This document shows positions 6,295-9,004 of a stretch of DNA of 41,713 bases, in pieces. This stretch comes from an uncultured Caulobacterales bacterium (GTDB taxonomy: Bacteria; Pseudomonadota; Alphaproteobacteria; Caulobacterales; Maricaulaceae): contig CALKXY010000031.1 in assembly GCA_938003545.1 (NCBI GenBank), positions 1-41,713 on the forward strand, read 5' to 3'. The notes below the pieces were generated by a model. That model had not been told where the DNA came from and made no database searches. It worked only from the letters and a program-made list of their open reading frames with translations. Each line of letters begins with the position of its first letter. The first letter of the stretch is position 1. Made by a program: the position numbers and the translations under genes.

Positions 6295-6483
6295 ATGGCT
6301 AAGAAAACAACCGTCACCGTGCGCCAAACTGGCAGCGCGACTCGCCGTAAACCAGATCAGCGTGCAACGCTTGTCGGTTTAGGCTTGGGCCGTATCGGAA
6401 AACAGCGTACGCTGGAAGATACGCCCTCTGTGCGTGGTATGATCCGTAAGGTCAGCCACATGATTAAAATCGTAGAAGAGTAG
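6295..6483 (+). CDS. rpmD: 50S ribosomal protein L30
   Basis: Small large-subunit protein. 62 residues. It contains [54 protein letters not shown]-type sequence matching L30 along the whole length. The start is 2 nt after rpsE. A hairpin (6490-6515) follows in the 58-nt gap before rplO. Confidence 0.96.
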
Positions 6484-6541: not shown

Positions 6542-7504
6542 ATGCGTTTGAACGAACTAAGTGATAATGATGGCGCCACACACCGCAAGAAGCGGGTTGG
6601 TCGTGGTATCGGCTCTGGCAAGGGCAAAACTGGCGGTCGTGGTGTCAAAGGTCAGAAATCCCGTTCTGGTGTTTCGATCAATGGCTTCGAAGGCGGTCAA
6701 ATGCCTATCTATATGCGTTTGCCGAAACGTGGCTTTAACGCGCCAAATGCCAAGACATATCAAGAACTGTCTATTGCTAACCTTAACCGTGCGCTTGAAG
6801 CTGGTAAGATCGACAGCAAGACAGATTATGATGGGGCTGCACTCGTTGAAGCTGGCGTCATTCGCCGCGTCAAAGACGGCGTACGTTTGATCGGCTCTGG
6901 CAAAGTGTCCAAAGCTGTAAAACTGCACGTATCTGGTGCCACAAAAGGCGCAATTGCGGCTGTTGAGGCCGCTAAAGGGACAGTTAATGTTCTGGACGAA
7001 GATACTGTTTATCGTGGTAAAGGCGAGAAGCAGGACCGGTCTAATAAAGTTTCTAAGGCTGACAAGAAAGCGGCTGCACTTGCGGCAACTCCTGTTGAAG
7101 CGCCTAAGGCTGAGAAAAAAGCAGCGGCTCCTAAGAAAGCTGCCGCGCCTAAGAAGGCACCTGCAAAAAAGGCTGCTAAAGCTGATGATGCTGTGTCTGA
7201 TTATCTCGAAGCGACGCAAAAGTTTGATGCTGATGCAGATAATGCTGTTGTCACAAAGATTGAAAAGCACCTTGGTGCATCTTTGAAGAATAAGGACGCG
7301 AAATATGTGTCTTGTTCCGACGAGACGGAACTCGAGACAATCGTCAAAGGCTTCATGAAAAAGAAAATGGGTATCGATGACAAAGTCGTTGCTATGGAAA
7401 AGGTCAAAGCTGTTTGTGCAGAAATGAAACCTGTCCGCATGAAGAACCGTGTGACTTTCTACTACTTGCTGGCCAAAAACGAAGGCAAGCTCGGCGAATT
7501 CTAA
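6542..7504 (+). CDS. rplO: 50S ribosomal protein L15 fused to a DUF2853 domain
   Basis: Residues 1 to about 157 are L15 ([52 protein letters not shown]), a late-assembling large-subunit protein. Residues about 158-215 are a Lys/Ala/Pro linker with repeated KKAAAPKKA units. Residues about 218-320 ([58 protein letters not shown]) match, from memory, the small uncharacterised family DUF2853, normally a free-standing protein of about 100 residues. Total 320 residues, about twice normal L15. The frame is continuous with no stop or second ribosome binding site at the junction, so I read it as a true fusion. Start: ATG with GGAG 10-13 nt upstream. The role of the appended domain is unknown. Confidence 0.95.
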
Positions 7505-7639: not shown

Positions 7640-9004
7640 ATGGCTTCAGCCTCAGAACAGCTTGCCGCAAACATGAACCTTGGCGTTTTGTCCAAGGCGA
7701 AAGAGCTACAAAAGCGCCTTCTCTTCACTCTCATGATACTGGTTGTCTACCGAATTGGTACATTTGTACCTATTCCTGGTATGAACATGGATGCATTTCA
7801 GGCCGCTTTTTCTTCTGGTGACAGTGGATCGCTTCTTGACCGTTTGAACATGTTCTCCGGCGGTGCCGTTGAGCGTATGGCAATCTTTGCCTTGAACGTG
7901 ATGCCTTATATTTCCGCATCGATCATCATGACACTTCTGAAGGGCTCTGTTGCGTCCCTTAAAGAGCTCGATAAAGATGGCGAGCAGGGCCGTAAGCAAA
8001 TCAACCAATATACGCGTTATTTGACCGTTTTCCTCGCAGCTTTCCAAGCTTTTGGTATCGCGCGGGCTCTTCAAGGTACAGAGGGCGCAGTCCTGAATCC
8101 AGGCCTCTTCTTCCAAGCCTCAACTGTTATCACATTGGTTGGCGGCACGATGTTCCTGATGTGGTTGGGTGAGCAAGTTACCGCACGTGGTGTGGGCAAT
8201 GGCGTATCATTGATCATTTTCGCAGGTATCGTTGCAGAGCTTCCTAAGGCGATTTTCCAGCTTTTCGGTATGAATCAGTCAGGGGAAATTGCTGAAGTGC
8301 TTCTCTTGATCTTGATCGTGCTCTTCGTAGGCCTCTGTATGTTGATTGTGTATGTAGAGCGGGCTCAACGTCGTCTCCGTATTCAGTATCCAAAGCGTCA
8401 AATGGCGAGTGGTAAGCAATTTGGTGGTGAGAACTCGTTCATGCCGCTTAAGCTGAACACAGCTGGTGTTATCCCTCCAATTTTTGCGAGTTCACTACTC
8501 TTGCTGCCTGCGACTTTTGGACAGATCTTTGTTGCCGGTGATGGTGCGACATCTGGTGTTATGGCGCGGGTATTGGCGTATCTGGGTTACGGCTCGCCGA
8601 CCTACTTGATACTCTATGGTTTGCTGATTGTGTTCTTCTGTTACTTCTATGTGCCTTATGTCTTTAAGCCTGATGATGTGGCTGACAACCTGCGCAAGAA
8701 TGGCGGCTTTCTGCCGGGTATTCGTCCAGGCCAACGCACGGCTGACTATCTCACCTATGTACTCTCTCGCCTTACATTTATCGGCGCGCTTTATGTGGCC
8801 TTTGTCTGTGTGCTACCTGAAGCCTTCATTGCGCGAAGCGGAAACATTCCGGCCTCTGTTGCGATGTTGATTGGTGGTATGAGCTTGTTGATTATTGTTT
8901 CTGTGACATTGGACACGGTTGCGCAGGTGCAATCTCATTTGATCGCGCATCAATATGAGGGGCTTATAAAGAAGTCTCGCATGCGCCGCCGTAACAAGAC
9001 TTAA
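7640..9004 (+). CDS. secY: Preprotein translocase channel subunit SecY
   Basis: Central pore of the Sec translocon in the inner membrane. 454 residues with about ten membrane segments. VYRIGTFVPIPGMN in the first helix region, FALNVMPYISASIIM, and the C-terminal cytoplasmic loop RKNGGFLPGIRPGQRTADYL are diagnostic. It ends with LIKKSRMRRRNKT. It is preceded by a 135-nt gap holding a strong hairpin; AAAGGGAACGG is the ribosome binding site. adk follows after 10 nt, the conserved spc-operon order. Confidence 0.98.
   Translation: MASASEQLAANMNLGVLSKAKELQKRLLFTLMILVVYRIGTFVPIPGMNMDAFQAAFSSGDSGSLLDRLNMFSGGAVERMAIFALNVMPYISASIIMTLLKGSVASLKELDKDGEQGRKQINQYTRYLTVFLAAFQAFGIARALQGTEGAVLNPGLFFQASTVITLVGGTMFLMWLGEQVTARGVGNGVSLIIFAGIVAELPKAIFQLFGMNQSGEIAEVLLLILIVLFVGLCMLIVYVERAQRRLRIQYPKRQMASGKQFGGENSFMPLKLNTAGVIPPIFASSLLLLPATFGQIFVAGDGATSGVMARVLAYLGYGSPTYLILYGLLIVFFCYFYVPYVFKPDDVADNLRKNGGFLPGIRPGQRTADYLTYVLSRLTFIGALYVAFVCVLPEAFIARSGNIPASVAMLIGGMSLLIIVSVTLDTVAQVQSHLIAHQYEGLIKKSRMRRRNKT

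Follow-up and report, generated by a model that had tools for sequence, protein, structure and literature searches.

This locus raises the question of why a core ribosomal protein should end in DUF2853, and of what that domain does there. We analyzed a stretch of 41,713 nucleotides (the window) from an uncultured Caulobacterales bacterium (contig CALKXY010000031.1) and found that its rplO gene is a single open frame of 320 codons, as an earlier note on the same DNA had read it (Table 1). The L15 model TIGR01071 matches residues 2-148 of the protein (143.4 bits, E = 4e-42, cut-off 77.95) over model positions 1-143 of 144, which makes the L15 part complete. The Pfam model PF11015 matches residues 221-317 (95.7 bits, E = 3e-27, cut-off 25) over model positions 2-100 of 101. 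Both the full L15 N-terminal part and the C-terminal DUF2853 domain proposed in the earlier note are thereby borne out. The frames around rplO resemble S5, L30, SecY, adenylate kinase, and S13, presumably an spc operon setting, in which we take the upstream neighbor to be L30 and the downstream neighbor to be SecY. The window genome (76% complete) has one L15 place, as does each of two relatives with a single contig (G014 and G018); these genomes therefore have no L15 other than the fused form. No conserved-looking start codon was seen by eye at the DUF2853 border of the L15 fusions, so that a separate DUF2853 protein made from an internal start appears less likely.

Table 1. Features of the rplO locus, in positions of the window.
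Feature	Coordinates	Strand	Remarks
rplO frame (L15 + linker + DUF2853)	6542..7504	+	320 aa + stop, single open frame
L15 core	6545..6985	+	TIGR01071
K/A/P-rich linker	6992..7189	+	about residues 151-216, low model confidence
DUF2853 domain	7202..7492	+	PF11015
Upstream neighbor	6295..6483	+	62 aa, frame only
Downstream neighbor	7640..9004	+	454 aa, frame only

The fusion recurs across the family. In a sample of 137 genomes from the window's family (f1), 125 had an L15 match, and 54 of these 125 frames were longer than 200 residues; we read all 54 individually, together with 11 of the 71 shorter frames. Forty-nine of the long frames are complete. Their tails comprise 23 with DUF2853, 8 with one class of HhH domain (HhH-A), 11 with a second class (HhH-B), a sole two-module tail (HhH-A then DUF2853, in G091), and 6 with linker only, so that 43 of the 49 carry a module. 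Of the other five long frames, two (G060 and G078) owe their length to an upstream stretch before an ordinary L15, and three are cut by contig ends (G011, G071, and G068). G071 also has a truncated frame with HhH-A at the start of a different contig (L209:2-469), which could be the part that its L15 lacks. DUF2853 stands behind L15 in the window's position in 22 further family genomes and in G091, giving 24 L15 genes with DUF2853 among those read. The same fusion is present in Litorimonas cladophorae strain KCTC 23968 (L034); the named records overlap with the family genome set and were counted once. Named relatives belong to Litorimonas, Hellea, and uncultured Caulobacterales or Hyphomonadaceae, the nearest being Litorimonas, which NCBI taxonomy places in Maricaulales, Robiginitomaculaceae. 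This recurrence in many genomes and named records rules out a sequencing error, which the earlier note had allowed for, or a misassembly as the source of the joined frame. No module was present in the 11 short L15 frames read in the family or in two read from other families. DUF2853 is rarer outside the family: elsewhere in the class it was found in 2 of 114 genomes, both times in a short frame, and in other families of the order in 9 of 24 genomes, in frames that are known by their length (114-174 residues) and stand apart from L15.

Among close relatives, then, one and the same position behind L15 holds different domains, and the difference can be located in the DNA. We compared identity per 90 bases, numbered from the start of rplO, between L004 (DUF2853) and L015 (HhH-A), and found 0.78-0.99 over the first 540 bases, 0.26-0.49 from base 540 to 1080, and again 0.68-0.89 from base 1080 to 2160. 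L001 (DUF2853) gives a similar pattern against L015, and the control pair L001/L004, both with DUF2853, stays at 0.77-0.90 throughout the tail. In the two aligned pairs with unlike tails, the tail region alone differs. A 37-genome tree built on L15 and S2 cores requires 16 changes of the L15 tail state and 10 of the S2 tail state, counts that, like all those on our trees, do not separate gain from loss; well-supported branches alone force at least 9 changes for DUF2853, 5 for HhH-A, and 5 for HhH-B. Shuffled labels on this tree averaged 17.6 changes for the L15 tail, with 30 of 200 shuffles as low as 16. A 65-row tree of L15 DNA takes 21 changes of the tail against a shuffled mean of 36.5 (0 of 200 as low), which points to some phylogenetic signal in the L15 tail, and the ordinary L15 state takes only 2; an S2 DNA tree of 37 rows requires 15 changes for the S2 tail.

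Each HhH class on L15 forms one clade (HhH-A, 100/96; HhH-B, 99/100), which would be compatible with a single capture of each, followed by shuffling among lineages. A single origin of all L15 DUF2853 modules found no support: six L15 rows of genus g11 form a separate clade (100/96) outside the main clade, in a tree whose base is poorly resolved. Across genera, mean DNA identity of module versus core was 0.75 versus 0.70 for HhH-A (31 pairs), 0.71 versus 0.70 for HhH-B (41 pairs), and 0.64 versus 0.69 for DUF2853 (200 pairs), with single pairs favoring the module by up to about 0.1. Module divergence thus about equals core divergence, so we rejected recent horizontal transfer of the tails; the modules are old, and most exchange, if any, was not recent. 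By eye, the end of the HhH-A tail in G061 resembles the linker found after HhH both in G091 and in the membrane protein described below. Taken with the two-module tail of G091, this suggests that differential loss from a two-module ancestor lies behind part of the pattern.

The small-subunit protein S2 has a matching slot. S2 (rpsB) was matched in 131 of the 137 family genomes, and the 49 S2 proteins that we read, chosen mostly for long frames, end in DUF2853 (10), HhH (23), or neither (16); Pfam confirms S2 with DUF2853 in L083. S2-DUF2853 loci are L028, L038, L041-L043, L083, L102, L103, L106, and L148-L152, some of which represent the same genome twice. The S2 of the window genome was not found by our search. 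In the module tree, all 10 S2 DUF2853 modules and 13 L15 modules form one clade (100/99), and the L15 copy of G004 adjoins the S2 copies; this nesting and the placement of G004 indicate that the module moved between ribosomal proteins. Judged by eye, S2 linkers (L083 and L124) are rich in A, E, and P, and L15 linkers (L001) in K, A, and P; by composition, linker charge appears to track the host protein and not the module.

The modules are not confined to ribosomal proteins. DUF2853 also occurs free, at the end of phasin-like proteins some 250 residues long, and on a coiled-coil protein with a membrane anchor, which may or may not have HhH as well. The membrane-anchored protein itself alternates between HhH with DUF2853, DUF2853 alone, and two HhH (L221); the last of these, from G071, has no DUF2853 and extends the alternation to a third host. 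In the window genome, this protein has 416 residues (L002:676-1926), with a hydrophobic N-terminus, HhH, and DUF2853, and the frame beside it presumably encodes an OmpA-like protein, judging by eye. Of ten N-termini taken from the phasin-like DUF2853 proteins, 6 match Pfam Phasin (PF05597) weakly (E <= 0.1, best 2.5e-4), and 6 match TIGR01837 weakly (best 1.4e-3); at full length, L107 scores 17.5 bits against PF05597 (cut-off 28.8), and L084, L089, and L096 gave no Phasin match. HhH of the same class stands near the end of L3 (L193 in G137 and L236 in G008), on NuoE, and on L21 in genera of the family with ordinary L15. Of 75 further genomes in the class, 6 have it (E up to 1e-8), on L21, NuoE, S2, and membrane proteins, as named by eye, and on the unnamed L197. 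Two PDB chains, 9wqv_a (a complex I subunit) and 8yy9_O (a reaction-centre chain), end in the same HhH class.

The fold of DUF2853 points to no function by itself. Modeled alone with AlphaFold2, it is predicted to be a five-helix domain (mean pLDDT 81.7), and the model of the full-length 320-residue protein has a low mean pLDDT of 56.8, with residues 159-230 under 50. In a Foldseek search of the PDB, the best match was 2pyq (E = 1.9e-3, probability 1.00, TM 0.67) and the next had an E of 2.4; this fold search gave no structural neighbor of known function, with nothing beyond 2pyq at E < 2. The protein in 2pyq, Jann_4075, has the same domain by sequence (E = 3.9e-12) and differs in being a free protein without a fusion partner, called uncharacterised. 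A full-text search for the name found no proposed function for DUF2853, the name occurring in an annotation table, and our literature search found no title or abstract start on DUF2853 or on HhH tails of ribosomal proteins. Outside the F0 group, which comprises free proteins, C258 and C292 are present in 64 of 64 DUF2853 modules and may have a metal or redox role.

More can be learned from the domain that DUF2853 replaces. Against PF14520 (cut-off 27), the HhH-B tail of L020 scores 32.2 bits, the HhH-A tail of L063 15.8, and the S2 tail of L140 18.7, with no match at E up to 0.1 for L015 (HhH-A); nine HhH tail segments all align on a single motif. When compared with NCBIfam, the HhH tails found on NuoE, L3, and L21 hit the models for L21, S2, NuoE, and the phasin PhaH. 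Searching 27 genomes with the PhaH model (NF045508), we found matches in 25, including L15 HhH tails (E = 4.4e-16 in G028, and 7.1e-16) and an S2 HhH tail (E = 7.9e-12 in G137); the first 48 model positions are left unmatched throughout, and several matches include low-complexity linker. A complete PhaH was rejected for these genomes, with 0 of 27 over the cut-off; among the controls, Caulobacter was over the cut-off and one archaeon under it. PhaH of Caulobacter crescentus is alike in joining a host-binding N-terminal part to a small C-terminal domain, and its C-terminal part resembles the alternative HhH tails of L15, S2, L3, and NuoE; it differs in that its host is a granule protein and that the domain in the window is DUF2853, not HhH. 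As DUF2853 is a domain other than the PhaH HhH, and only the alternative tails match PhaH, we compare L15-DUF2853 with PhaH in mode of action and do not file it as PhaH-type. Known alphaproteobacterial L21 and S2 proteins with HhH tails (PRK12278 and PRK12311) likewise consist of a ribosomal protein, a linker, and a C-terminal HhH; we confirmed such an L21 in L227, with others, named by eye, in the class sample. The system described here differs in having L15 as host and DUF2853 in place of HhH. The K/A/P linkers of the L15 tails also resemble, we assume, those of PhaF, PhaM, and AlgP. According to a review (PMC13052382), the C-terminal end of Caulobacter PhaH, with its HhH domain, binds DNA nonspecifically, and Caulobacter granules are spaced along the nucleoid. 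PhaF, PhaM, and AlgP, as described in the same review, are alike in that one protein links a body to the nucleoid via a histone-like DNA-binding part, and differ in having granule proteins as hosts and no such small folded C-terminal module.

We tentatively propose that the L15 C-terminus in this group serves as a slot in which tethering modules are exchanged at the end of a flexible linker. DUF2853 would there be the equivalent of HhH and most likely bind nucleic acids nonspecifically; we hold this as a serious possibility rather than a probability. DUF2853 would be one occupant of the slot and the two classes of HhH the others, and one type of device would tether the two ribosomal subunits, the storage granules, and a membrane anchor to the nucleoid or to RNA. 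As DUF2853 occurs on phasin-like proteins as well as in the ribosomal slots of HhH, we infer that it may stand in for a nucleoid-binding module, and the sharing of one slot by two modules suggests that their functions may be equal. The fuller version, in which DUF2853 is a nucleic-acid-binding tether, has been swapped with HhH many times, and belongs to an exchangeable set anchoring ribosomal subunits, granules, and a membrane protein to the nucleoid, is rather unlikely to hold in every part.

The charge of the modules speaks against nucleic-acid binding, in that the ribosomal DUF2853 copies are near neutral. Mean net charge of DUF2853 is +1.3 on L15, +0.2 on S2, +0.6 on phasin-like proteins, and +8.8 on the membrane protein, the one host where it is clearly basic, and that of HhH is -5.2 on S2 and -0.9 and -1.9 for the two classes on L15. 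Across 72 DUF2853 modules, K274, K275, R299, K301, and R303 are basic in 93-100%, and the acidic D252, D260, and E263 are conserved as strongly. Neutral or acidic modules fit better with protein-protein docking, in which the modules would recognize either a shared partner or the membrane-anchored protein and thereby hold ribosomes, and complex I via NuoE, at the inner membrane. We read the membrane-anchored DUF2853/HhH protein in 22 genomes of the tailed lineages (hand-picked loci, with the anchor judged by eye), and the HhH class shared with 9wqv_a and 8yy9_O would suit a place at the membrane. Yet two unrelated folds would need one shared partner, and the HhH of PhaH is reported to bind DNA (PMC13052382); on balance we consider docking unlikely.

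The joint distribution of the two domains bears on the same alternative. A PF11015 search of 40 genomes of the family gave a match in 22. DUF2853 was present in none of 14 genomes with ordinary L15 (two read and twelve classed by frame length), and PF11015 had no match in G068, G073, G074, and G086. The first three of these, all from one genus (1.8-2.0 Mb, 88-97% complete), also gave no HhH of this class; their S2 proteins (L228, L229, and L153) lack a module, and of their L15 frames, those of G073 and G074 have a linker without a module, and that of G068 runs off its contig. This joint absence fits a connected DUF2853-HhH system, as docking to a shared partner would have it, but it may also represent a single event within one genus. 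Furthermore, G086 lacks DUF2853 yet keeps HhH on NuoE (L216), G132 has a membrane protein with DUF2853 and no HhH, and 9 of 10 ordinary-L15 genomes searched have HhH proteins without any DUF2853, all of which argues against a strict link between the two domains.

Alternatively, the modules might be mobile passengers, spread and lost by recombination in the K/A/P-coding repeats without a needed role on the host. The near-random tail distribution on the 37-row tree, the relatives with linker-only or tail-less L15, and the unrelated host proteins would agree with this, as does selection along the gene. We estimated dN/dS (NG86) in 28 pairs from eight genomes of the window's genus, obtaining 0.02-0.11 for the DUF2853 part in 22 pairs (six pairs gave no value), 0.02-0.19 for the L15 core in all 28, and 0.02-0.17 for the linker where computable, with dS mostly above 1. 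The similar linker values and high dS indicate constraint on the whole gene, with DUF2853 not singled out; in more distant pairs, the module has a lower dN than the linker. Against mere carriage stand the signal on the 65-row tree, the retention of a module in nearly all complete long tails with only one keeping two, and the cross-genus divergence of modules, which roughly matches that of the cores and marks them as old and kept. We therefore regard a passenger origin as distinctly unlikely.

The earlier note had proposed that DUF2853 acts on or near the ribosome, in our terms directly in assembly or translation. That one protein of each subunit carries it, L15 here and S2 in relatives, agrees with such a location, but the domain is also found on membrane, phasin-like, and free proteins, and the L15 of close relatives carries the unrelated HhH or no domain, which speaks against the idea that DUF2853 belongs to the ribosome; we judge direct action improbable. 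That L15 would merely provide high expression, with DUF2853 released by proteolysis of its long, low-confidence linker, is highly improbable, given that free DUF2853 genes in the same genomes would make release needless.

The tethering proposal thus gives a concrete, testable hypothesis for the function of DUF2853. The fusion is indeed a clue to the whole family, as the earlier note had anticipated, though through the domain that DUF2853 replaces and not through L15 alone. Beyond that expectation, proteins of both ribosomal subunits have a domain-exchange slot, and its tethering function is our hypothesis. In these marine bacteria, core ribosomal proteins of both subunits alternate whole C-terminal domains among close relatives, with a possible physical link of ribosomes to the nucleoid or the membrane. 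If the tether reading is true, the exchangeable C-terminal modules would make up a general system of cell organization.
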